A stretch of DNA of 64,000 bases from Chloroflexota bacterium (GTDB taxonomy: Bacteria > Chloroflexota > Anaerolineae > Promineifilales > Promineifilaceae): assembly GCA_022616275.1 (NCBI GenBank), contig JAKEFB010000100.1, positions 32,769-96,768 on the forward strand, in the 5' to 3' direction. The translations under genes were made by a program, and so were the position numbers. Positions 19,906 through 42,064 of this stretch are shown one piece after another; within the stretch, counting starts at the first letter, position 1; each line of letters starts with the position of its first letter. The notes below the pieces were generated by a model, which saw only the letters and a list, made by a program, of their open reading frames with translations, did not search any database and was not told the origin of the DNA.

Positions 19906-20181
19906 ATGGCGAAACAAGGAAAGCAGTCTATTGGGGAGTTAGCAGTACTGATTAGTGCTATTGCGCTAATCATTGGTCTTATAGCGGATGGCGCTGATTT
20001 AGTAGAATTAGTTTCGGTTAACCCTTCCGATCCACAAGGGACATTCGTGGGCAAAGCCTTCTTCTTCTTGCTACTAACCCTGTATGGGCCAATTGCCTTA
20101 CTTGCATGGATGCATGCTCGATCTTTGACTTCACGTAAAAGTCAGAATGCTATTGCCATGATGGCCGGGTGGGCTCATTGA
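19906..20181 (+). CDS. Small two-TM membrane protein of unknown function
   Basis: A 91-residue protein with a short basic N-terminus and two hydrophobic helices (about 11-36 and 50-68). They are joined by a short loop rich in Asp/Ser, with a basic C-terminal tail. I recognise no family. ATG 19906 is used; an in-frame TTG lies 15 nt upstream. It overlaps the start of the next gene by 13 nt, which strongly suggests it works with that Nudix/cyclase-homology protein. Base composition is clearly AT-richer than the flanking polysaccharide genes. Confidence 0.6.
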   Translation: MAKQGKQSIGELAVLISAIALIIGLIADGADLVELVSVNPSDPQGTFVGKAFFFLLLTLYGPIALLAWMHARSLTSRKSQNAIAMMAGWAH

Positions 20182-22079
20182 CTGTTTGGGAAATCAAGTT
20201 TTTCGTCAATCCGCTTGGAGCTAATCTTTCTCAACCCCAGCAAGCTTTGGCTTCATTACTTGCTCTAATAATCGCAGCGTTGCTGGGAACAGTTGTCTTT
20301 CGCAAAGTGGTTGTGCCCCTAGCGGATAGTCTTGCCGGACGGTTGTCACCGTTGTATGAAATAATGGGTGGTGAATATGATTTCCCTGTAGTGTGCTTTA
20401 GGATTTTACCGCAACCTGACTGGCGTCAACGGAAAATCCGGATGAAAGTTTTTAGTCAAGCAATAGCTAAAGTATTACACAGTCATTACGATTGGGGAAA
20501 TACCGATTTGGCTACGTTACAAACAGGGACCGAATGGGTAGTTGTCGGGATTAAGCTGACTGCCACAGAGATATTTGACCTGACAAGAGAAACCTTAAGA
20601 ACCTATAGAGCTGCTCTTCTGACAGAAGGAATAGCTTTAGAAATAAGCGAGGTCGATGTGGGGGTAGGAATGGAACGTGGGCAGGTTTTTTCGATCAGCC
20701 ACCCGATCAGGGAATTAGATACAGTACCCGCTGGCATTGGTGTGGATGGCGCATGCCGTCTGGCTTCAGTTTCGGAGAAAGGTACCGTTCTGCTAACGAA
20801 GAATTTCTTAAATGCGCTAGAGGCAAGTGATGATGGTTATGATTTAGCCAAAAAGTTCACGAGGCGCCTTGGATACCTTGATCTCGGCTCACTACGACCG
20901 GATGTATATGAGGTTTATATCAGTGGTGAGATAGGTCGTCCACAGGTAACAGTTCCACAGGCATCAATTTTGTATGATACTGACGCTCTATCTGTTCGCC
21001 TTCTAGAACTTTTATCCCGGGCAGGAATACAGCCATGGCCTCAAGTGGAGAAGCTTAGAGATAATGCAGATAAATCAGTTCTTGCTATTGATGGTGTCAT
21101 CTCGATAGTTGAGCCTCCTGGCTATAAAGGATGGAAACCAGATCCTAATCTCGTTGTTATCAATTTGCGTCAAAGGGCTGAAACTATAACCTACTGGCCG
21201 CCCAACTGGCATGAAGAGCTAAGAGAAAAATATGGTCAATTAGAGGAAGGCGCCATAAATAGGAATAAAGTGTTCATAGACAAATGGGATCCCCCGATAC
21301 TTGATCGTGGAGGTAAACTGCGGCTCTGGTTGGGAATAAGCACATATAGAGACAATAGGGCGTTGGAAGCGGTCTTGAACCTGAACAGGAAGAAGAGACA
21401 AAGTCAGGAACAAGAGGGTGAGTTTGATTGGATCACATTTGAGTGGAAATCTGAGGATGAATGGGACCGAGTCTTTCGTTGGCGCGACGGCCGTCTTGTC
21501 GATCTTCGGTGGGAGTATTTTAATAACACTATAGACTTTTGGGAATACTTACCCAATATGATAGTTTTGACGCCAATTGTAATCTCCAGTGATAACAAAA
21601 TAGTGTTTATGCGGAGAAGCAACAAGGTAAAGTACTACCCTGGTCACTGGTCTATCTCGCTAGAAGAACAGATCGATCCAAACCAGGATGCATTAAGTGA
21701 AACTTTGCTCAGGAAGGCAACTGAAAGGGCTGTTGAAGAAGAGCTTGGAGTTAAAATTAGAGAGATGGAGATCTTATCTATTTATAGAGAGTGGCATAAC
21801 GGGGTCATAAATGTTGCCATTCTGGCACATGTTGATAGGATGTCTGGCTCTATTGAAAATGCATGGCGGCAAGCTGTGGACGAACATGAAGCTCAACAAA
21901 TTCACTTTGAACCTTTTATGGATTTGGACAACATGCTTAATATCCTGCGAACTTCCAGTTATAAAGGGGGTAAATTTCATCCAGGCTCAAGATACCGATT
22001 ATTGTTAGCACTGTTAGCAGAGCATGGCTTTGAAACAGTAATCCAAAAGCTAGGCGAGATCGTGAACTACGAAAATTAA
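20169..22079 (+). CDS. Membrane protein with degenerate cyclase-homology domain and C-terminal Nudix-like domain
   Basis: A 636-residue protein. A hydrophobic helix lies at about 27-50. Residues about 70-220 resemble a class III nucleotide cyclase homology domain: DFPVVCFRIL as strand 1, LQTGTEWVVVGI as the central hairpin, and GVDGACRLASVSEKGTVLLT, which matches the ending AARL-x(5)-G-x-I/V-L-V/L-S/T. Both usual metal Asp positions are changed (Arg in CFRIL, Thr in TGTE), so cyclase activity is unlikely. Residues about 270-410 are an unassigned module. Residues 460-585 look Nudix-like: NKIVFMRRS, YYPGHWSISLEEQ and TERAVEEELGV, with one Nudix-box Glu replaced by Ala. GTG 20169 is the assumed start. 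Function unknown; a nucleotide-sensing or signalling role is inference. Confidence 0.65.
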   Translation: MGSLTVWEIKFFVNPLGANLSQPQQALASLLALIIAALLGTVVFRKVVVPLADSLAGRLSPLYEIMGGEYDFPVVCFRILPQPDWRQRKIRMKVFSQAIAKVLHSHYDWGNTDLATLQTGTEWVVVGIKLTATEIFDLTRETLRTYRAALLTEGIALEISEVDVGVGMERGQVFSISHPIRELDTVPAGIGVDGACRLASVSEKGTVLLTKNFLNALEASDDGYDLAKKFTRRLGYLDLGSLRPDVYEVYISGEIGRPQVTVPQASILYDTDALSVRLLELLSRAGIQPWPQVEKLRDNADKSVLAIDGVISIVEPPGYKGWKPDPNLVVINLRQRAETITYWPPNWHEELREKYGQLEEGAINRNKVFIDKWDPPILDRGGKLRLWLGISTYRDNRALEAVLNLNRKKRQSQEQEGEFDWITFEWKSEDEWDRVFRWRDGRLVDLRWEYFNNTIDFWEYLPNMIVLTPIVISSDNKIVFMRRSNKVKYYPGHWSISLEEQIDPNQDALSETLLRKATERAVEEELGVKIREMEILSIYREWHNGVINVAILAHVDRMSGSIENAWRQAVDEHEAQQIHFEPFMDLDNMLNILRTSSYKGGKFHPGSRYRLLLALLAEHGFETVIQKLGEIVNYEN

Positions 22080-22111
22080 GTGGTTGTAATCGTTGGTTCA
22101 CTATTACGAGG

Positions 22112-23143
22112 GTGATTAACGGTGTGAAGAATAGTACGCAGTTGCTCCAACAAATTGGAGAATCATTACAAAGTGCAGGCATAAAAGCCGCTCCTAAAGC
22201 CAAAAGAATTCTTGAAGCATATAAACGCGACACATTAGCTATTGATGATGCGGTCTTAATTATAGCACCCTCAGATTTAAAGGGCTGGATGTCCCCATCA
22301 CAATTTATGGTGACCCTGTCCCAGGATGATCGCTTGCTTAATTTACCCTCTCTAAGCGAACTAGAAAAGCAGTATGGTTTTATTCGAAAGCCACAAAGAA
22401 ATGAGTCGAAGTTTACGATACTTCACTGGGAACAACATTGTGTAAACGACGAGTGGGTCCTAGAATTGCAAATGGGCAGAAGTTCAACGGAAGTAAACGT
22501 TGTAATCGAGTTTATGATTGATCATCCTGTATTGGAAATTTCTCCGGGGCGACACTGCACGCTTTATGAAGCCTATCTTACCAAGATCTTTGACTTTTGG
22601 ACTCATTTACCTAATCTCGTTACAGTAACGCCCGTGATTAAAACCTTGGACAATAAAGTGTTATTCACCAAGCGCTCTGCAAAAGTTTTCTACTACCCTG
22701 CCCATTGGGAGGTGTCTATTTCGGAACAGATGAACCCGAACCAGTTGAGCGACAAAAGATTTTTCTTCCATGGAGCCATTGAGAGGAGTATCCGAGAAGA
22801 ACTTGGTCAGGTTGAAATTTCACAAATCCAAGTTTTAGGATTTTATCGCGAAGTTTCAAATTTAAACGTGGATGTCGGTGCATTAGTCATGGTGAATGAG
22901 AAAGAAAATGAGATACGAAAGGCAATAGCTGCAGCACCGGATTTAGACGAACACTCTAACATTGAATTCGAGCCGTGGAACCCTGAAAACTCAGTACAAC
23001 TTATTTCTAGCACTCACTACAAAGCTCGAAGTTCATCTGCATTATCTGGGCCATACCATCCAAGTGCGCGAATGCGACTACTGTTGGCCATGTTGGCAGA
23101 CTTTCCCCACGAAACATTACTGAGTTTAATCAATCAGCAATAG
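22112..23143 (+). CDS. Nudix-like paralogue of the upstream protein (no membrane or cyclase part)
   Basis: A 343-residue soluble protein related to residues about 270-636 of the preceding gene product. Shared marks in the same order are LAIDDAVLII vs LAIDGVISIV, KGWMSPSQFMV vs KGWKPDPNLVV, FWTHLPNLV vs FWEYLPNMI, NKVLFTKRSAKVFYYP vs NKIVFMRRSNKVKYYP, and ERSIREELG vs ERAVEEELG. The Nudix box here is EEL-G with Ile at the position that is Ala in the partner, so the metal ligands are incomplete relative to REUXEEXGU. YHPSARMRLLLAMLA closes both proteins. It starts 32 nt after the partner, in the same AT-rich segment. A hetero-oligomer or regulator/enzyme pair is plausible. Confidence 0.65.
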   Translation: MINGVKNSTQLLQQIGESLQSAGIKAAPKAKRILEAYKRDTLAIDDAVLIIAPSDLKGWMSPSQFMVTLSQDDRLLNLPSLSELEKQYGFIRKPQRNESKFTILHWEQHCVNDEWVLELQMGRSSTEVNVVIEFMIDHPVLEISPGRHCTLYEAYLTKIFDFWTHLPNLVTVTPVIKTLDNKVLFTKRSAKVFYYPAHWEVSISEQMNPNQLSDKRFFFHGAIERSIREELGQVEISQIQVLGFYREVSNLNVDVGALVMVNEKENEIRKAIAAAPDLDEHSNIEFEPWNPENSVQLISSTHYKARSSSALSGPYHPSARMRLLLAMLADFPHETLLSLINQQ

Positions 23144-25804: not shown

Positions 25805-26179
25805 ATGGCTTTGATCAAGCGATTCGAGGATGTGCAGGCCTGGCAGGAAGCGCGTAACCTAACGAGGCAAATCTACAGGCTTAGCTCCACTGGTTCGTTT
25901 GCACACGACTTTGGATTACGAGACCAGATCCGCCGGGCGGCCGTTTCAAGTATGGCTAATATCGCCGAAGGGTTTGATTGTGGCTCTACCAAAGAGTTTG
26001 CCCGTTTTTTAGGCATTGCCCGCCGTTCGGTCGTGGAAGTTCAGTCGCTCCTATATGTAGCCCTCGACGCTGGCCATATTGACGAAGACGCGTTTACAGA
26101 ACATTACGCACAGGCAACAAAAACCAAGGCCCTGATAGGAGGCTTCCTCCATTCCCTGAACAAACGCACCAACACCTGA
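25805..26179 (+). CDS. Four-helix-bundle protein (23S rRNA intervening-sequence protein family, IVP/S23)
   Basis: A 124-residue all-helical protein of the S23/IVP family. The marks are FEDVQAWQEARNLTRQIY in helix 1, FGLRDQIRRAAVSSMANIAEG in helix 2 (shown in part), EFARFLGIARRSVVEVQ in helix 3 and the final LIGGFLHSL. Members were first found inside 23S rRNA intervening sequences; free-standing copies are scattered in many genomes and are related to the Avd proteins of diversity-generating retroelements. The gene is not in an rRNA operon here. Its stop TGA (26177-26179) is formed by the downstream heptamer array. Role unknown; see the cassette finding. Confidence 0.88.
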   Translation: MALIKRFEDVQAWQEARNLTRQIYRLSSTGSFAHDFGLRDQIRRAAVSSMANIAEGFDCGSTKEFARFLGIARRSVVEVQSLLYVALDAGHIDEDAFTEHYAQATKTKALIGGFLHSLNKRTNT

Positions 26180-27488: not shown

Positions 27489-28174
27489 TAATTTGGGCGC
27501 TCATCCCGGCTCGCGGTGGCTCGAAGGGGATTCCCCGCAAAAATATCCGGCCGCTGGCCGGCAAGCCGCTCCTGGCCCACACCGTCGAGCAGGCCCTGGC
27601 GGCCAGCCAGGTCAGCCGGGTGATTGTCTCCACTGACGACGAGGAGATTGGCGCGGTCGCTCAACACTATGGGGCTGAGGTCGTCTGGCGGCCGGCGGAA
27701 ATCAGCGGCGACACGGCCACCTCGGAGTCGGCTTTGCGGCACGCCCTGGACGCCCTGGCCAAATCTGAAGGGTACGAACCCGACCTGGTGCTTTTTCTGC
27801 AATGCACCTCGCCGCTGCGCCGGCCGGGGGACATTGACCAGGCCATTCAGACCCTGGTCGCGGCCGGGGCTGATTCTCTGCTCTCCGTTGTGCCCTCCCA
27901 CCGCTTTTTGTGGCGCGTCGCCGAAGAGGGCCAGCCTGCTTCGCTCAATTACGATTACCGCCACCGGCCGCGCCGCCAGGACCGGCCGCCGGAGTACGTC
28001 GAAAATGGCTCCATTTACCTTTTCAAGCCCTGGGTGCTGCGCCAGGGTAACAACCGGCTAGGCGGCAAAATAGCTCTCTACGTTATGGACGAGTGGAGCG
28101 CCATTGACGTTGACTCCCCGGCCGACTGGCAATTGTGCGAATGTTTACTGGCAGCCAACGACATAACCACATAA
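27464..28174 (+). CDS. neuA: Cytidylyltransferase, CMP-nonulosonate synthetase (NeuA-like)
   Basis: A 236-residue nucleotidyltransferase. ALIPARGGSKGIPRKNIRPLAGKPLL is the family N-terminal signature (shown as in the first strand; P-loop-like GGSKG with the two basic residues). FLQCTSPLRRPGDID binds the base and sugar, and YVENGSIYLFK and WSAIDVDSPAD (metal Asp residues) close the active site. It activates a sialic, legionaminic or related nonulosonic acid with CTP. The NeuB-like gene directly follows. Start is GTG 27464 or ATG 27467; both lie inside the heptamer array. The last residues (DITT) and the stop codon come from another repeat. Confidence 0.88.
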   Translation: MMSNPKSKIIWALIPARGGSKGIPRKNIRPLAGKPLLAHTVEQALAASQVSRVIVSTDDEEIGAVAQHYGAEVVWRPAEISGDTATSESALRHALDALAKSEGYEPDLVLFLQCTSPLRRPGDIDQAIQTLVAAGADSLLSVVPSHRFLWRVAEEGQPASLNYDYRHRPRRQDRPPEYVENGSIYLFKPWVLRQGNNRLGGKIALYVMDEWSAIDVDSPADWQLCECLLAANDITT

Positions 28175-28200
28175 CCACACAACTACATAACTACAACCCT
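28157..28200 (+). repeat. ACATAACC/ACAACTAC-type tandem repeat
   Basis: Five degenerate 8-mers of the ACATAACC type fill the junction. They supply the stop codon (TAA) and final residues of the cytidylyltransferase gene. A strong AGGAGG (28203-28208) comes directly after. Confidence 0.75.
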
Positions 28201-28212
28201 ACAGGAGGATTC

Positions 28213-30099
28213 TTGCATACTCCATATTTACAAATCGAAGACCGCCGCGTTGGCCCTGGCGAACCTTGCTTCATCATTGCCGAGGCCGGGGTCAACCACA
28301 ACGGCAGCCTGGCGATGGCTCTGCAGTTGGTAGACGTAGCCGTCCAGTCCGGGGCCGACGCCGTCAAGTTCCAAAAGCGCGAATTGCATAGTCTCTACCC
28401 ACCCGAGCTGCTGGCCAATCCGAACTCGGCCGAGTGGGCCTACCAGTACATCCTGCCCCACTTGATTGAATCCGAGTTAAGCAACGACGACTTCCGGCAG
28501 GTCAAGGCGCACTGCGACGAACACGGCATCCGCTTCATGTGTACGCCCTGGGACAAGGGCAGCCTTGATTTCCTGGAAGAACTGGGGGTGAGCGTCTACA
28601 AGGTCTCCTCAGCCGACGTGGTCAACCTGCCGCTGCTGGAGCAACTGGTGGCCACCGGCAAACCTCTCATCCTCTCTACCGGCATGGCCACCCTGGACGA
28701 AATTGAGCGTACGGTCGAGTTTCTCCAGGAGCGGGGCGCGTCCTTTGCCCTGCTGCACTGCGTCAGCACCTACCCCGCTCCCTTTGAAAACCTCAACCTG
28801 CGTTTCATTGAAACGCTCAAGCAATTTGATGTCCCTGTTGGTTATAGCAGCCACGAGCGGGGCATCGCCATACCCCTGGTGGCTCTCTCGCTGGGGGCCT
28901 GCATCATCGAAAAGCACATCACCCTCGACCGCACCCTGCCCGGACCGGACCACGCTGCCAGCCTGGAACCCCAGGGGATCGGCAAAATGATCCGGGATAT
29001 TCGCCACGTCGAAGCCGCCCTGGGCCATACGGAGAAGCAGTTGTCGGCCATGGAGAAGTTAAACCGCCAGGTGTTGCGCAAGAGCCTGGTAGCCGCCGCC
29101 GACCTGCCGGCCGGAACGGTCATCACCCATCCGATGGTCAAAGTCCAGGGGCCAGGCAAAGGGTTGTCACCCCAACATATTGACGAGCTGCTTGGCACGG
29201 TCCTGAAGCGGGACGTGAAGCGCGACGATTACTTCACCGAGAGCGATCTGCGCATCAGCCACAACGGCGTGATCCGGGCCAACGGCCTGCGCCGGCCGTG
29301 GGGCTTCAAAGCCCGCTTCCACGACCTGCCGGCTATCCTGGCCCAGCAGCCCCGGCTCGTCGAACTGCACTTCAGCCAGGTAGACGTGGACCATCCCTTT
29401 GTGCCGCCCCCCCACCCCTACCCGCAGCAGTTATTCATCCACGCCCCTGAGTTTGCCGACAGCAAACTACTCGACCTCTGCTCGGACAACGATCAGGTCT
29501 GGGAGCGGGCCGTGGATTTGATGCAACGGACCATTGACAAGGCGGCCGAGATGCGGCCGTTCTTTTCCGGGCCGGTTGGCGTCGTCATTCACGTCGGCGG
29601 GATGAGTATGGACGAACCGGTGACCAGCCATGACCGGCTACTCCGGCGAGCGGCGGCCGCTTTCCGGCGCCTGGACCCCAAAGGGACCATCCTCTTGCCA
29701 GAAAATTTGCCACCCCGGCCGTGGTACCTGGGTGGGCAATGGTTCCAGAACGTCTTTATCCGGCCGGAAGAGATGGTCGAGTTTTGCCAGGAACTGAAGT
29801 TGGGCATGGCCCTGGACATCTCGCACGCCCAGCTCTACTGCAACATGGCCGGCGAGAGTTTATACGACTACGTCCGCTGCTGCCTGCCCTACGCTCGCCA
29901 CCTGCACCTGGCCGATGCCAGCGGCATTGACGGGGAGGGCTTACAGATTGGCGACGGGGTGATTGCCTGGGACGAAATCCTGGCCTTGTTAGCCGACCAG
30001 GACTTTACCTGGGTTCCTGAGATCTGGAGCGGCCACCTGGATAATGCGGCCGGCTTTATTGAGGCGGTTAACCGCCTGGCTGAATACGAGGTGTTGTAA
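28213..30099 (+). CDS. neuB: Nonulosonate synthase (NeuB-like) fused to a sugar isomerase-like TIM barrel
   Basis: About 628 residues. The N-terminal about 290 residues are a NeuB aldolase: FIIAEAGVNHNGS, ADAVKFQKR, RFMCTPWD, YKVSSAD, LSTGMA, HCVSTYPAP, GYSSHE and EKHITLDRTLPGPDH. Residues about 300-350 are a SAF/antifreeze-like lid (AGTVITHPMVKVQGPGKG). Residues about 365-628 are a second TIM barrel like xylose isomerase/AP endonuclease 2 sugar isomerases: ENLPPRPW, LDISHAQLYC, HLHLADASGIDGEG and EIWSGH. NeuB condenses PEP with an N-acyl hexosamine; the extra barrel may provide an isomerase/epimerase step. The TTG start at 28213 is favoured because of the AGGAGG site just upstream. The longer frame runs into a repeat and the previous gene. 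Confidence 0.88.
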   Translation: MHTPYLQIEDRRVGPGEPCFIIAEAGVNHNGSLAMALQLVDVAVQSGADAVKFQKRELHSLYPPELLANPNSAEWAYQYILPHLIESELSNDDFRQVKAHCDEHGIRFMCTPWDKGSLDFLEELGVSVYKVSSADVVNLPLLEQLVATGKPLILSTGMATLDEIERTVEFLQERGASFALLHCVSTYPAPFENLNLRFIETLKQFDVPVGYSSHERGIAIPLVALSLGACIIEKHITLDRTLPGPDHAASLEPQGIGKMIRDIRHVEAALGHTEKQLSAMEKLNRQVLRKSLVAAADLPAGTVITHPMVKVQGPGKGLSPQHIDELLGTVLKRDVKRDDYFTESDLRISHNGVIRANGLRRPWGFKARFHDLPAILAQQPRLVELHFSQVDVDHPFVPPPHPYPQQLFIHAPEFADSKLLDLCSDNDQVWERAVDLMQRTIDKAAEMRPFFSGPVGVVIHVGGMSMDEPVTSHDRLLRRAAAAFRRLDPKGTILLPENLPPRPWYLGGQWFQNVFIRPEEMVEFCQELKLGMALDISHAQLYCNMAGESLYDYVRCCLPYARHLHLADASGIDGEGLQIGDGVIAWDEILALLADQDFTWVPEIWSGHLDNAAGFIEAVNRLAEYEVL

Positions 30100-35067: not shown

Positions 35068-36453
35068 ATGTTATTTGTAGCTAATTTGCGGCCGCAAAGC
35101 ATCGAGTCGTTTTCGGCCCGCGATACTCGTCCGCAGGCCTGGCTGTTGTCCAGCCACCGTCTGTCCAGATCGACATTGCGCTATGCCCTTGCTGTTCGCG
35201 AGCAAGGGCAAATCCTCTTTGCTGATAATGGAACTAAAATAATCATCGAGGAGACTCTGGACCAGTTCAGTAAAGCGGCTGAATCCCTTAACCAAGAAGT
35301 GCGTAAGCTGAGACGAGCACTAGGTCGCACGCCACGTGGTAAGCAGGTGCCTCCAGCTCTACGAAAGCGCGCCTCAGACCTGGCTAACCAAGTTCTGGCT
35401 GTTAGCGAAGCGAGGTCAGATGCTATTGATTGGGAGGAACTACTATCCCTGCAGTTGTCAATGCGGCCGACGCACCTTATCGCGCAAGAGGATTTTGGCA
35501 CAGCCTGCCTGATTGGCCTGGGTCTGGAACGAGAGATCACAGGTTGGCCTATTTCGGCGTTCGTTAAGCGGAACCGGCGTAGTCTGCAACTGTGGCAACG
35601 TGTGGTCGAACATCCTGACTGTCGTGATGTCAATGTTTATGCTGTCTTAAGCGCCATGGATTACAATACTGCACGTGCCGCCGGGGAACTGGCGGCACGC
35701 ACTGGCGTTACACATGTCGCTTTGGGTACGGCATCCATCACGCTGGACCGTTATTCGACAGATTTTTACGTGAAGGGGTACAGTTCATTTCGGCTCAATG
35801 ACCCGGCTCCTCGTCGCTATGTGCGATTTGCACAGATTGCCCTTGGTATCGCCGACGGTTATCGTCTTGCGAACAAGCGCCTGGAAGCCTTTCATGCCCT
35901 GGGCCTGGGTGCGCCCACATTTTTCCCGTTATTGGCAGCGGCGACGGATGGCCAGACGACACTAACCGTGGATGCTACGAGCCCAATCCATGACGCGGTA
36001 CGGGATAGAGTTATGTATAACCCTGTCGAGAACGGGAACCGTGAAAATCTACGCCAAATTACAAGCGCAATTGTGCGCGGCAAAGATTGGCCCTTTCTTT
36101 GCCCATTTTGCCAATCGTTTCGTCAGAAATATGGTCACCAGCCCGATATGGCCCAGGCATCTTGGGTAGCCCAAGGCCAGCCTACCATCACAAATGAACT
36201 GCTACAAGGGGGTATGCCCTTGGCAGACGCGCTTCCATTATTTGCAGATTTGTCCCCACCCGTCTCAAGAGACGCCGAGCACACACACATAGCACATAAT
36301 CACTGGGTCGTGAGCAAATTGGCAGAGAGCGTACCTGACGGACCGAATAGGAAAAAATGGGCAGAGGCCCAGATCGGACAACTACTAGATTATGAATCCT
36401 TGACAACATCTCGTGGACTGCAGGCGGCCAGGAGCATCCTTTTTGAGTACTAA
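35068..36453 (+). CDS. tRNA-guanine transglycosylase-like (TGT/DpdA-like) protein
   Basis: A 461-residue protein with the layout of the TGT family TIM barrel. ILFADNGTKII (D53) sits at the place of the TGT DSGGFQ base-binding loop. YAVLSAMDYNTARAAGELAA then VALGTASI match the Q-G-G/L-R...IGGL region. FHALGLGAPTFFPLL followed by LTVDATSP (D302) match the G-x-G-x-P and nucleophile Asp loop. CPFC (C345, C348) plus HTHIAHNHW (H405-H412) match the zinc site and HN of TGT. Family members exchange guanine for a 7-deazaguanine in tRNA, or in DNA for DpdA. It starts an AT-richer block and has a TGAGGAAA ribosome site. No 7-deazaguanine synthesis gene is in the window. Confidence 0.65.
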   Translation: MLFVANLRPQSIESFSARDTRPQAWLLSSHRLSRSTLRYALAVREQGQILFADNGTKIIIEETLDQFSKAAESLNQEVRKLRRALGRTPRGKQVPPALRKRASDLANQVLAVSEARSDAIDWEELLSLQLSMRPTHLIAQEDFGTACLIGLGLEREITGWPISAFVKRNRRSLQLWQRVVEHPDCRDVNVYAVLSAMDYNTARAAGELAARTGVTHVALGTASITLDRYSTDFYVKGYSSFRLNDPAPRRYVRFAQIALGIADGYRLANKRLEAFHALGLGAPTFFPLLAAATDGQTTLTVDATSPIHDAVRDRVMYNPVENGNRENLRQITSAIVRGKDWPFLCPFCQSFRQKYGHQPDMAQASWVAQGQPTITNELLQGGMPLADALPLFADLSPPVSRDAEHTHIAHNHWVVSKLAESVPDGPNRKKWAEAQIGQLLDYESLTTSRGLQAARSILFEY

Positions 36454-36523
36454 CTTTACAGTACCTATTTGTCTTGGTACGTTAGGACCATGTTCATGAA
36501 TAAACTAAAGGAGAATCTGTGCT

Positions 36524-37936
36524 ATGGAAGTGATCAATATCTTAGACTTACACGAGGATCTTGCTGCCGGGCAGCGTGCGGCGAAGTTATATCGGGAACT
36601 TGAGCAATTAACGCTTGAAGAGTTGCGCAAGCACAGTGACCAGGTATTTAGTCAACAAGAGCTTTATTTTACGGCACTTTCCGGTGAATATTCAGAGCAG
36701 TTGGTGGCTCTACGCCAACTTATTGCCAGTAGCGACGCACTCTTGAACGTGCATGACCTGGTTTCTACTGTCAATAGCCTTCGCTCTCGCGTTAACGCGC
36801 ATGAGCCATCCATCGTGAATGCTCTGAAAAGAATAGCCGATCTTGCCCGGGTTGAACTCGCGGAACAGCTAATCCTGCCGGAACTCAGAGAGGTATTCAC
36901 CAAAGCGCGTAACTCCCGGTTGGATGCAGAGGAGTTAGCACGATCGATGCTAAGTCTGCCCATCCAAGAGCTGGGAACAATGCCCAAAACTATGCTTGAG
37001 GGCACTTCGCAGACTCGTCTCTGGGGACTTCACACCCTACTGTTAACCGAGTTGGTGGTTGCGGAGCCCAGGGCTGACCTGCTGGACTACGGACAGTTGA
37101 AAGCGATACAGGCCGAATCGGCTCGACGCATGCGTACATTCAGAGATCGGGTGCGCCAGGGTGCCGGGATGCTTAACGATAATATCGCTACCCCAGATGA
37201 CATCATGACACTTTGGGGAGCCCTGTTTGACCTGGAATCCTGGCTTCTGGAAACGGGTTTCGCCGATGTGGCGCGGGCCAGCGCGGCTGCCACCTATCAG
37301 GTTCAGAACGGAGCCAGCGATGCAGAACGTTGGGCACGAACGGCCGGTCAAGCGTATGAAGCTATCAGAACTGCTCTGGCGCTAGACGCAGGTACGCGTC
37401 AGGTTCTTATTGCCTACGCGCTCCACGACGAAGACACCTTATCTAACTTTGCCGCCAGTAGCCATCTTCGTTTAGGACCTGCGACCCTGGATCTGAAGCG
37501 CTCATCGCTGGCACAGGTGTCGCAGGTTGAGGAAGGTACCCTGGTCGAAATTGATGCCGTTGTCCAGGATGCAGATTACGTGGCTGGTGGACCAAGACCA
37601 AGAACACTACTTATTCTTGGTAAACCAACAGCCACGCAAGTGACCGCGCGACTGCCTTTCACCTCGGCCGACTCTTTCGGCATCATCCCTGGTATCTGGG
37701 TTCAAGTGCGTGGTACAGCCTATCCCAATGGTAAAGGTTCGGTCAAAGGTCCTCTAGTTGAAGTGCGCCGCATCCGTCGCGGCGCGGTAGCCAACGAAAG
37801 CTTTACTGACTGGCTCATATGGGCAGGGCGGGACATGTTTGAATACCGTCCTGGGGAATTGGACATAATTGGCGGCCGCCTGGCTGGCACCAGAGAGACG
37901 CTGAACGAATCCAGCGCGCGCCTACTACTGCAATAG
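36524..37936 (+). CDS. Large helical protein with probable OB-fold domain, partner of TGT-like gene
   Basis: A 470-residue protein I do not recognise. Residues 1-330 are almost entirely helical, with coiled-coil-like stretches (LYRELEQLTLEELRKHSDQ; SLRSRVNAHEPSIVNALKRI). Residues about 336-420 look like an OB-fold: EGTLVEIDAVVQDADY, PRTLLILGKP, GIWVQVRGTAYPNGKGS, PLVEVRRI. OB-folds commonly bind single-stranded nucleic acid, which would suit a partner of a TGT-like enzyme. It has an AAAGGAG ribosome site and lies 70 nt after that gene with the same AT-rich composition. Nothing else fixes its role. Confidence 0.55.
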   Translation: MEVINILDLHEDLAAGQRAAKLYRELEQLTLEELRKHSDQVFSQQELYFTALSGEYSEQLVALRQLIASSDALLNVHDLVSTVNSLRSRVNAHEPSIVNALKRIADLARVELAEQLILPELREVFTKARNSRLDAEELARSMLSLPIQELGTMPKTMLEGTSQTRLWGLHTLLLTELVVAEPRADLLDYGQLKAIQAESARRMRTFRDRVRQGAGMLNDNIATPDDIMTLWGALFDLESWLLETGFADVARASAAATYQVQNGASDAERWARTAGQAYEAIRTALALDAGTRQVLIAYALHDEDTLSNFAASSHLRLGPATLDLKRSSLAQVSQVEEGTLVEIDAVVQDADYVAGGPRPRTLLILGKPTATQVTARLPFTSADSFGIIPGIWVQVRGTAYPNGKGSVKGPLVEVRRIRRGAVANESFTDWLIWAGRDMFEYRPGELDIIGGRLAGTRETLNESSARLLLQ

Positions 37937-37947
37937 GAGAGAAACTA

Positions 37948-38157
37948 ATGGCTAACGCGATTCCACCACAATGTGAAGATATTTGTGATGATGCGGATAG
38001 GGCAAGGGAAATATATGATCAGCGCTGGAAGGATTATTTTGAGGCGCGGCAAGCCTGGGAAGAAGAAAAAAGCGTTTGGGATGAGAGCACCTTCGGCGAC
38101 GCAGGTACCGTTCTAGCCACCATTGCGGCGTGCGCCACGATTACACTTGGGTGGTGA
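37948..38157 (+). CDS. First half of a split helical-hairpin membrane protein (ends at in-frame TGA)
   Basis: Sixty-nine codons from ATG 37948, with GGAG 10 nt upstream. It has a CEDIC motif near the N-terminus, a long charged helix (DDADRAREIYDQRWKDYFEA) and then a hydrophobic helix (GTVLATIAACATITLGW) that stops at TGA 38155-38157. The frame continues open for another 65 codons with a mirror-image arrangement (see next entry), so the two parts look like one gene. It follows the OB-fold gene by 11 nt. Confidence 0.6.
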   Translation: MANAIPPQCEDICDDADRAREIYDQRWKDYFEARQAWEEEKSVWDESTFGDAGTVLATIAACATITLGW

Positions 38158-39382: not shown

Positions 39383-42064
39383 ATGGGTAATCAACTGTTG
39401 AGAAAACGAACTGTACAAATAGCTGTGCTTGTGAACCTGCTTATCATTTTGTTACTAGCCTACTTTTTCATACGGCAACAGATGACGCTTTTACAGACTG
39501 ATTCGGAAGGGCAAATTGAGGCTGCCTATGCGACGGCCGAAGTTCAAAACGATCTGCTAACTACAGCCGAAGCACGAACACAAGCCTCTATGGCAACAGC
39601 AGTAGTAGAGGGAAGCCTTCGTGCAACAGCCGATGCCCAGGTGATCGAGCTTGTCACGACGATTGAAGCTCAGGCTCAGATCACTCTACCGACTACCATA
39701 GAATCCCAACCCTTAGTACAAGACCAACAAGCCCTCGCCTATCAATTGGCCCTTGAGTCCGAATTGATTCTCAATGAGCAACCGGCTTTATTAGAGCGAA
39801 GCGTATTACTCGCCATTGAAGCAGTCCAGCGCTACCCTCATGCTGGCACAGTCAGCATTTTGAAAAATGGTGTCACTTTGCTTCCTCGTTATGATAGAGC
39901 TTTGAGCCACCGGGATTTTGGCTACATCTTAGCTTATAGTCCAAATGGAAAATATGTTGCCTCTACTGGTAACGATAATGATGCGGTCCTTATTTGGGAT
40001 ATCGACAATGACCGTGAAGCAGCTCGATTAGTCTACGAAGACCGGATAAGTAAGATTGCCTTCAGCCCGGAAGGTCTCTATCTAGTGATCGTATGGGGAG
40101 ATATCTTCGCAGGTGAAAATAATGTAACTATTTGGGAGATAGCCACAGGCCAAGAGACAATTTCGTTCCCCCTTGATAGCGCTGCCATAACGCTAAAATT
40201 TAGCCCAGATACGAATTACCTTGCGATAGCAACAGAAGAGACCGTCAGCGTGTTGGATATAACTACCGGACAGGAGGTGATGAGTCTACCTAACAACGGC
40301 ACGGATGTCACATTCAGCACAGATGGGCAATCTGTGTACACAGTCAATGATGGGGTACAGCAGTGGAGCATCGCAACAGGCCAGCATGAAGGCGCTATCA
40401 TCAGCGAGGAAACCATCGAAGGGCAAACGGTCTTCAGCCCACAGAGCAAATATCTTTTTCACAATGGCTACAGCCCTAAGATATGGGCACTTGAAACGGG
40501 CATGGCCGTAGAACTTGAAACGAGTGCCCCTTATCGTTTTTTTGAAATTATATTTAGTGCTGATGAGAAGTATTTGGTGACTACCCAATTGGAAGGAAGT
40601 TTAGCCGGGGATACATTTGGACAAAATCTTGTCCAATTATGGGATGTGGCCACCGGGCGTGAGATGATGCACATTGAAGACTTTGCCTTTGATGTAACTT
40701 TTAGTCCAGATAGTCGTTATTTGGTAGTGCCCATGGGTGAAGTAGCTCGTGTATGGGAACTACCAAGTCAACAAGAGGTATTCCGGATTGTGCGCGATGA
40801 AACGATTTCCAGTCCAACCTTTAGTCCTGATGGGCGCACCGTGATCGTTCACAATTCCAATTCGATTACAGGAAGAAAATCCACTGATGTTTGGGAAATG
40901 ATACCAGCTCAATGGTATTGGCGTTTTGAGCACGGTTCGCCAAGCGGTATTTACTCCATGGCATTCAGTCCGGATGGCCAATACTTGGCCACGGGTGGAG
41001 AGGAAAATATTATCCATGTATGGGACACAGAAACTGGAGAAGAAGTAGCCCATTTCGACCACCAACAATATCATGTTTTAGTTGTCGCGTTCAGCCCAGA
41101 TGGCAGATACCTCCTTTCAGGAGGGACAACCATTCCTTACGGAGCTGAATACACCAGTGTGACGCATCTGTGGGATATGGTGACTGGAAGTGAAGCCATT
41201 AGTCTCACCCACGATTACCAGGTTGTTGATGCCTCATTTAGCCCCGATGGGCGGTACTTCGCCACCATTGGTCAAACTGCAAATACGGTGAGTGTTTTCG
41301 ATGCGGAATCGGGAACCGAGATCTTTTCCATACAAAATAAGGGCTACCTAGGCGTGCGCTTTAGCCCTAATGGTCAGTATATGGCTACGATGGATCTTGA
41401 TACTATCTGGCTATGGGACACAACAAAGTGGCGCGAGGTTATGGTAATAACGGAAGTTTATTCTGCCAATTTTCGGTTTGGCCCTGATGATCGAGTAATT
41501 GTTTTTGAAGGCAGAGATACAGAACGTAATAGCACTTTATATGTTCGGGAGATTGCCACTAACCGCGAAGTTCTGAAGCTCCCATATGAAGACGGGGTAC
41601 GAAGCATTGACATTAGTCCTGACAATCAGTATTTAGCTGTGAGTAGTGGTAGCTTTTGGGAATATAACTCCGCTTTGCAGATCTGGAATATTGCAAGTGG
41701 AGACAAGCTAATCGATTTACCTACTAATAACGAATTGGGAAAAGTTACATTTAGCCATGATGGCCGCTACTTGGCTTTTGAGAGTACAGAGGGCGTTGTC
41801 AGTGTGCTTGATATGACCACACAAGAAGAAGTTGCTCGTTTGATGCATCCGAGAGCGATTTTTAGTATCTCTTTTAGCCCCGACAACCGGCAACTTTTGG
41901 TCCAAAGTGGTATCTCTACCGTTTACCTACGGCGATGGCTCCCCGACGACATAGTCGCTGAAGCGTGTAATCGGTTATCACGAAATTTGACCCTTGAGGA
42001 ATGGCAAACATTCATTGGAGATGAACCCTACCATCCGACGTGCCCAAATTTGCCCAGTGAATAA
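39383..42064 (+). CDS. Membrane-anchored WD40 beta-propeller protein
   Basis: An 893-residue protein. A single TM helix lies at about 13-30, followed by an Ala/Thr/Glu-rich helical stalk (TAEARTQASMATAVVEGS and similar). A helical segment, QLALESELILNEQPALLERSVLLAIEAVQRYP in outline, is of the type that precedes propellers in STAND-type proteins. Then at least a dozen WD40-like blades carry FSPDGRYL / IWDI-type motifs (for example FSPDGQYLATGGE and VWDTETGEE), enough for two propellers. No NTPase or effector domain is present. The TM with the propeller after it suggests an extracytoplasmic binding protein. The gene is AT-richer than its neighbours and poor in GGCCGG. Confidence 0.85.
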   Translation: MGNQLLRKRTVQIAVLVNLLIILLLAYFFIRQQMTLLQTDSEGQIEAAYATAEVQNDLLTTAEARTQASMATAVVEGSLRATADAQVIELVTTIEAQAQITLPTTIESQPLVQDQQALAYQLALESELILNEQPALLERSVLLAIEAVQRYPHAGTVSILKNGVTLLPRYDRALSHRDFGYILAYSPNGKYVASTGNDNDAVLIWDIDNDREAARLVYEDRISKIAFSPEGLYLVIVWGDIFAGENNVTIWEIATGQETISFPLDSAAITLKFSPDTNYLAIATEETVSVLDITTGQEVMSLPNNGTDVTFSTDGQSVYTVNDGVQQWSIATGQHEGAIISEETIEGQTVFSPQSKYLFHNGYSPKIWALETGMAVELETSAPYRFFEIIFSADEKYLVTTQLEGSLAGDTFGQNLVQLWDVATGREMMHIEDFAFDVTFSPDSRYLVVPMGEVARVWELPSQQEVFRIVRDETISSPTFSPDGRTVIVHNSNSITGRKSTDVWEMIPAQWYWRFEHGSPSGIYSMAFSPDGQYLATGGEENIIHVWDTETGEEVAHFDHQQYHVLVVAFSPDGRYLLSGGTTIPYGAEYTSVTHLWDMVTGSEAISLTHDYQVVDASFSPDGRYFATIGQTANTVSVFDAESGTEIFSIQNKGYLGVRFSPNGQYMATMDLDTIWLWDTTKWREVMVITEVYSANFRFGPDDRVIVFEGRDTERNSTLYVREIATNREVLKLPYEDGVRSIDISPDNQYLAVSSGSFWEYNSALQIWNIASGDKLIDLPTNNELGKVTFSHDGRYLAFESTEGVVSVLDMTTQEEVARLMHPRAIFSISFSPDNRQLLVQSGISTVYLRRWLPDDIVAEACNRLSRNLTLEEWQTFIGDEPYHPTCPNLPSE

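Follow-up and report, generated by a model that had tools for sequence, protein, structure and literature searches.

What would a TGT-like barrel and a putative nucleic-acid-binding protein do together, as a compact gene pair outside the dpd clusters? The question is raised by a 64,000-nucleotide stretch of a Chloroflexota genome (contig JAKEFB010000100.1 of assembly GCA_022616275.1, positions 32,769 to 96,768 of the forward strand; hereafter the window), from an assembly of 8.5 Mb in 309 contigs. Barrels of the TGT family act as base-modifying enzymes on tRNA and DNA, and in CBASS such a barrel binds a protein that carries a modified base. A sequence-only reading of this DNA had proposed that two open reading frames (ORFs) between positions 35,068 and 37,936 form a minimal, different base-exchange system. 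Here, we argue from profile comparisons and a predicted model that the first, ORF1, is most likely a divergent member of the TGT/DpdA superfamily, and that it is probably an active enzyme. By analogy, it would exchange guanine for another base in a polynucleotide, DNA being favoured, with ORF2 and ORF3 as companions; we give this reading a probability of roughly 0.45. Both frames lie where the earlier reading had placed them, and by eye each has a sequence of Shine-Dalgarno type. The pair is thus real, but the unit probably comprises three genes, as a small frame begins 11 bases after ORF2.

35068..36453, + strand: ORF1, 461 aa, most likely a divergent TGT/DpdA-superfamily protein (hhalign, VIA-align)
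36524..37936, + strand: ORF2, 470 aa, helical protein with a C-terminal OB-like region; diverged counterparts adjoin a TGT-like gene in loci L004 and L003/L005
37948..38352, + strand: ORF3 region, small protein interrupted by TGA (reading frame)

The kinship with TGT and DpdA is supported by profile-profile comparison with shuffle controls and by structure comparison. Aligned with hhalign, the profile of the ORF1 family matched a profile of nine bacterial and plasmid DpdA-like sequences (two DpdA, four short TGT paralogues and three plasmid proteins) at E 6.1e-5 to 6.3e-5, with a score of 41.7 and Prob 65%. When nine canonical TGTs, from the 9 of 15 loci that passed the motif filter, were added to these nine members, the match reached E 3.2e-5 and Prob 73%. 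None of 200 column-shuffled queries attained 41.7 (maximum 23.7, mean 15.5, standard deviation 2.5), the reversed query scored 16.6 against the nine-member profile, and eight unrelated single proteins used as controls scored 12.9-18.1. The AlphaFold2 (AF2) model of ORF1 was built without any DpdA or TGT sequence. Compared by VIA-align, all 50 of the matches listed were TGTs, the top neighbours being tRNA TGTs; DpdA and Cap10 structures were not among the matches listed, which carries no weight either way.

Yet, the significance of this kinship is tied to one reference set, and several results weigh against the reading that builds on it. Taken singly, six of the nine members score like unrelated proteins (13.5-17.5), the others reaching 24.1, 29.0 and 29.8. 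Leaving out one member at a time makes E span 3e-5 to 4.8e-3, the weakest value (0.0048) arising without T2_G061. Smaller or different sets give far less: E 0.018 for the four short paralogues alone and likewise for four plasmid proteins alone, 0.3 for the two bacterial DpdA, 0.12 for the phage DpdA profile (L026, of 15 fetched loci, and L012-L018 being unused) and 0.44 for the canonical TGT profile. A larger mix of 10 bacterial or plasmid and 15 phage sequences, which includes the L037 protein excluded from the nine, gives E 0.0063 and a score of 27.3 against a shuffle maximum of 23.8; the plasmid matches H44 and H46-H49 were left out. The nine-member set was chosen after weak results elsewhere, and shuffles control for composition, not for the choice of set. 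As for the TGT fold expected on structure prediction, the unanimous VIA-align matches listed stand beside a low predicted local distance difference test score (pLDDT 48.5) and the lack of any Foldseek match at E <= 0.001 in PDB or BFVD.

Family libraries offered no other assignment. At E <= 1, ORF1 matched nothing in Pfam or PADLOC, nor the NCBIfam DpdA model (NF041059, cut-off 200 bits). Among PDB sequences it retrieved two designed helical proteins only, at E 4, and the family profile retrieved none. Two PHROG matches (E 0.19 and 0.29) are not credible, and a match to NCBIfam SCO4983 over a helical insertion of ORF1 (E 0.0014, 19 bits, cut-off 55) was taken as chance. By the tests made, all of them on sequence or predicted structure, ORF1 is neither a canonical TGT nor a DpdA.

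If ORF1 belongs to this superfamily, are the residues expected of a transglycosylase in place? The motifs named by the sequence-only reading are all where it put them: D53 (FADNGT), D302 (TVDATSP), CPFC (345-348) and HN (410-411). We aligned ORF1 and its two relatives with the nine DpdA-like proteins, under two MAFFT settings.

35224..35226, + strand: D53 codon, FADNGT, candidate base-binding Asp (phage DpdA alignment, predicted strand)
35233..35424, + strand: long helical insertion predicted at residues 56-119, separating barrel strand 3 from strand 4 (AF2)
35491..35493, + strand: D142 codon, AQEDFGT, second candidate base-binding Asp position (alignment)
35650..35652, + strand: S195 codon, in the place of the VQG-motif Gln (alignment)
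35893..35895, + strand: H276 codon, FHALGLGA, barrel strand 7 motif (alignment)
35971..35973, + strand: D302 codon, TVDATSP, candidate nucleophile (alignment)
36100..36111, + strand: CPFC, remnant zinc-site cysteines (alignment)
36295..36300, + strand: H410-N411, zinc-site His-Asn motif (alignment)

D302 lies opposite an Asp in all nine DpdA-like proteins, under both settings and in hhalign, as the proposed Asp of the nucleophile loop should. H276 also faces a His in 9/9 and, in a low-threshold alignment, His196 of phage 9g DpdA; an equivalent of this His is missing from DpdA2 proteins, according to PMC6884629. The octapeptide FHALGLGA around H276 is common to ORF1 and a Thermobacillus plasmid DpdA-like protein.

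The base-binding Asp is less straightforward. D53, which we take to occupy the position of TGT Asp102, is invariant in the three family sequences and ends a predicted strand (E49-53), and D53-N54-G55 falls opposite D72-S73-G74 of phage DpdA in the best local match; but that match has E 0.12, and across the helical insertion D53 is not aligned with an Asp of the nine-member set. The insertion is predicted as a hairpin of two helices (H56-86 and H96-119) between D53 and D142, and has no counterpart in the short paralogues: by-eye counts put the two Asp 89 residues apart in ORF1 and 39 in T2_G323. D142, a residue that the earlier reading did not mention, faces an Asp in all four short paralogues under both settings, is unaligned with the two DpdA and is invariant in the family (3/3). 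Other positions have changed. At S195, the three family members have Ser where all six short-TGT and DpdA proteins have Gln and the alignment leaves gaps in the three plasmid proteins. In the GG loop, the ORF1 family has Thr or Leu for the second Gly.

The zinc site of TGT (PF01702) and of zinc-type DpdA consists of three Cys and one His. ORF1 has two Cys and HN, and its relatives Ser, Thr and HN. The HN motif is opposite HN in the six short-TGT and DpdA proteins under both settings and is invariant (3/3), and CPFC is opposite CPVC of the short paralogues in one of the two settings and in hhalign. Hence, both motifs of the proposed zinc site are present, but the cysteines are not conserved: CPFC reads SPFT in both relatives, and the site is degenerate because both have S and T for these two cysteines. 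We had considered HN as a C-terminal helix of the phage DpdA type rather than as a zinc ligand, and dropped this after alignment with the zinc-bearing paralogues.

How widespread is this gene pair? Matches to ORF1 were found in two of 400 genomes of the phylum, the window genome and G365; in two of 158 genomes of the class of G365; and in one of 57 genomes of the window's own order, the window genome itself. Two peptide patterns scanned against about 85,000 species genomes, strict enough to miss more distant members, gave two loci, L004 in a Thermomicrobiaceae metagenome-assembled genome (MAG) and L005 in a Sphaerobacteraceae MAG, apparently the G365 contig. Neither ORF1 nor ORF2 matched plasmid or phage records, and the ORF1-family profile matched no viral contig; motif patterns run on viral contigs gave 5 and 0 stretches, three of the five with the motif in an open frame and none a relative by eye. 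ORF1 is 51-53% identical to the two relatives, where the TGT-like gene recurs with an OB-like partner. The order differs: partner, small protein and TGT-like gene in both relatives; TGT-like gene, partner and small frame in the window. A partner search of the 400 phylum genomes returned the window genome and one weak match (E 8.5e-4), unrelated by eye; this search underestimates, since the diverged partner of G365, a sampled genome, was not recovered. The ratio of non-synonymous to synonymous substitution rates (dN/dS), was computed between the two relatives only, with an in-house Nei-Gojobori script. The TGT-like gene has a value of about 0.13, its partner 0.21 and the small protein about 0.82. 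The cassette is a rare, diverged branch, and among the papers listed by a full-text literature search, with subscription papers mostly outside its coverage, none describes it.

The partner is more difficult to classify.

37496..37798, + strand: OB-like region of ORF2, residues 325-425, basic (Pfam match in the L004 homologue)

The homologous stretch of L004 matches the OB-fold PF01336 at E 0.001 and 19.4 bits, below the cut-off of 27, but this stretch of ORF2 itself had no Pfam match at E <= 10 and no OB-fold protein among its PDB sequence matches. The best PDB row, CpcN (E 2.2e-5), was discarded because its score adds up weak repeats, none of which passes by itself; seven further rows have E 0.32 or worse. 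The AF2 model of ORF2 is uninformative (pLDDT 35.5). ORF2 is 26-27% identical to the partners of the relatives, BLASTP giving E 4e-6 over 46 aa of the OB-like region only. The isoelectric points of the stretches in the window and L004 are 9.98 and 11.47. An OB-fold, as first proposed, is therefore a plausible but weakly supported label.

The ORF3 frame shows a hydrophobic segment flanked by two charged parts. An in-frame TGA (38155-38157), inside the hydrophobic part, cuts it into pieces of 69 aa and 61 aa (64 codons past the stop). The L004 and L003 cassettes have an uninterrupted frame of 190 aa, alike in layout only, as sequence similarity to ORF3 is not significant (E 0.046 for one and none for the other). 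Nonsense mutation, assembly error or recoding may account for this TGA.

Among the suggested sources of an exchanged base, queC/D/E/F, we searched for QueC, and it is present in the window genome and over cut-off in all three cassette hosts. Canonical tgt is found in two of the three, the third genome being 87% complete. One host, the window genome, has a gene for Vut_1, presumably of the preQ0-transporter type, near queC. No DpdA passes the cut-off in the window genome (best and only match E 0.327, NF041059). That no other dpd gene accompanies the pair agrees with the window neighbours scanned, among which none was recognised; the other dpd models were not run genome-wide.

Where does the cassette stand among known systems? 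The closest are the short TGT paralogues (L060:7571-8482, L059:10390-11400, L061:7155-8297 and L062:5493-6458). Like ORF1 they have the motifs of strands 5 to 8, CPxC, HN and the D302 and D142 positions and, by eye, a similar N-terminal start; unlike ORF1 they lack the helical insertion, are only 304-337 aa long (three of them) and keep the strand 5 Gln and the zinc cysteines. Three of the four adjoin a full or partial DpdA. The L059, L060 and L061 loci (genomes G328, G323 and G061) thus hold a full-length or partial DpdA plus a second, shorter TGT-like gene; DpdH-like matches below cut-off occur in the two of these loci that were scanned, and no DpdA is reported beside the short gene of L062. 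Bacterial DpdA (NF041059; PDB 7UI4, the Salmonella Montevideo protein according to PMC12137116) resembles ORF1 in superfamily, H-x-x-G and Asp-Ser/Ala motifs and similar length. ORF1 differs in having no NCBIfam DpdA match, a degenerate zinc site, the predicted helical insertion and no recognised dpd neighbour.

The Firmicutes plasmid DpdA-like proteins (L035, L036 and L038) share with ORF1 the FHALGLGA/FHFLGG and ADAST/ADST motifs, but are extended at the N-terminus. By eye they have no Cys/His zinc motif, and the annotation of the stretch fetched includes no OB partner. These genes (L035:3551-4609, L036:3497-4615 and L038:3521-4567) are annotated as hypothetical, and the extension, of about 130-150 aa, looks DNA-binding by eye. 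Phage DpdA (9g, CAjan and others) are like ORF1 in the DSG-type loop, the H-G-x-G of strand 7 and the Asp-Ser of strand 8, but their profile does not match significantly (E 0.12). In 15 of 16 loci read, the annotated neighbours include a gene for GTP cyclohydrolase or the preQ0 pathway. Cap10 of type IV CBASS, which we compared by description only, is likewise a remodelled TGT-family protein, binding a deazaguanylated protein N-terminus according to PMC11996544. PADLOC gave nothing for ORF1 at E <= 1, and no CBASS family was seen among the scanned window proteins. TGT and GNAT genes also occur in a subset of BREX-related loci, to judge from the survey PMC12839542; therefore the TGT fold seems to have been recruited more than once.

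How might the cassette work? By analogy with TGT, D302 would attack C1' of a guanosine, a covalent intermediate would form and guanine would leave, with D53 and D142 holding the leaving and incoming bases. ORF2 would be a nucleic-acid-binding partner, docking to ORF1 through its helices and gripping the substrate via its basic OB-like domain, and ORF3 a small membrane-associated companion. The genes would travel together as a rare cassette, drawing on the host 7-deazaguanine pathway, and might have a defensive or self-marking role. We favour DNA as the substrate, since the closest relatives that turned up were DpdA proteins and DpdA paralogues rather than tRNA TGTs. What the computations support is membership of the superfamily, the conserved D302 and D142, the recurrence with an OB-like partner and a small protein, a foreign base composition and QueC in every host. 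The minimal, different base-exchange system first suggested is a fair hypothesis, its catalysis being putative and its substrate perhaps DNA, perhaps RNA. Some observations fit it poorly. The Ser in place of the base-pocket Gln and the zinc cysteines lost in the relatives may mean that activity is lost or changed. QueC is common, being over cut-off in 11 of 14 control genomes too; its presence in the hosts therefore permits rather than proves a 7-deazaguanine substrate. A 17.6-kb contig from one of the relatives shows no defence gene by eye, and ORF3 is interrupted in the window copy.

Might ORF1 instead act on RNA, as a separate transglycosylase branch that modifies a tRNA or some other RNA and uses the OB protein as RNA-binding subunit? 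The top structural neighbours are tRNA TGTs, the weakly matched OB family is the tRNA_anti-codon OB-fold, and the three short paralogues scanned also match tgt_general, below cut-off. However, PDB is rich in tRNA TGT entries, which leaves the structural ranking little to say on substrate; the canonical TGT profile by itself does not rise above noise (E 0.44), against E 6e-5 for the DpdA-like set, and a patchy, rare distribution would be odd for a housekeeping tRNA enzyme. We consider this rather doubtful. That the barrel exchanges nothing, and instead binds some ligand such as a protein with a nucleobase modification, possibly to serve as a sensor for which ORF3 is the target, seems unlikely. 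Cap10 is a precedent, a TGT-family protein that binds a deazaguanylated N-terminus (PMC11996544), the base-pocket Gln and zinc cysteines are altered, and a hydrophobic segment occurs in ORF3 as well as in its counterparts, the counterpart evolving fast (dN/dS about 0.82). Yet, ORF1 has no PADLOC match although that library includes a TGT model, no nucleotidyltransferase or QueC family appears among the scanned window frames (6) and proteins (8), and the candidate catalytic Asp residues are invariant (3/3).

The in-frame TGA of ORF3 and the absence of a match elsewhere in the order (56 further genomes) would suit a decaying cassette from a mobile element, non-functional in this genome. ORF1 and ORF2 are nevertheless long and intact, and their counterparts are under purifying selection between the two relatives, a test outside which the window copy lies; decay seems to us quite improbable. 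Least credible of all is that ORF1 is another TIM-barrel enzyme with convergent TGT motifs. The family libraries gave no credible match, the model is of low confidence, and the top Foldseek rows in PDB, none better than E 0.02, are unrelated folds and TIM barrels of other kinds; but the motifs are colinear across the C-terminal half of the profile alignment, none of the 200 shuffles came close, and the TGT family accounts for all 50 VIA-align matches listed. A bolder version of the exchange reading is itself doubtful: an undescribed three-gene mobile system in which a zinc-incomplete, altered-pocket enzyme of the TGT/DpdA superfamily, steered by an OB partner and tied to a membrane protein, would replace guanine by a base outside the known preQ0 series in DNA or RNA, or use the exchange as an antiviral signal.

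The surroundings bear on the origin of the genes. The AT-rich island described earlier is borne out, though moderate: guanine-plus-cytosine (GC) content in the three 1-kb windows of 35-38 kb is 54, 49 and 56%, against 63% upstream (34-35 kb) and 59% downstream (38-39 kb), and 39-42 kb is AT-rich once more (46-51%). Third-position GC (GC3) is 0.51 in ORF1, 0.54 in ORF2 and 0.49 in the ORF3 frame, whereas three measured neighbour genes have 0.73, 0.84 and 0.78. Around the cassette lie genes that look like glycan biosynthesis (NeuB, AMP-binding, sulfotransferases, hexapeptide transferase), with a WD40 protein. With this low third-position GC and these surroundings, the cassette looks horizontally acquired. 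Its boundaries carry no flanking direct repeat of insertion-site type; the check there counted 4 promoter-like sites (2.2 expected) and 5 terminator-like sites (3.4 expected).

Other parts of the window deserve mention. A second AT-rich island (20169-23143) holds genes of 636 and 343 aa with a GC3 of about 0.40, its only match being a sub-threshold NUDIX one in the 636-aa gene. At 39383-42064 an 893-aa WD40-repeat protein with a hydrophobic N-terminus has a GC3 of 0.43, far below its neighbours. NeuB, SAF and xylose-isomerase-like barrel domains are fused in one frame at 28135-30099, and a gene for a 23S rRNA intervening-sequence protein lies amid the glycan-type run (25805-26176).

The sequence evidence for the kinship comes from a small family and a single reference set. 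If the exchange reading is true, ORF1 and its relatives would form a compact branch outside the dpd clusters, with an OB-like partner of its own and an altered base pocket, and more substrates or bases would then be within reach of the TGT fold. As a unit of two to three genes, it is compact enough for experimental testing.

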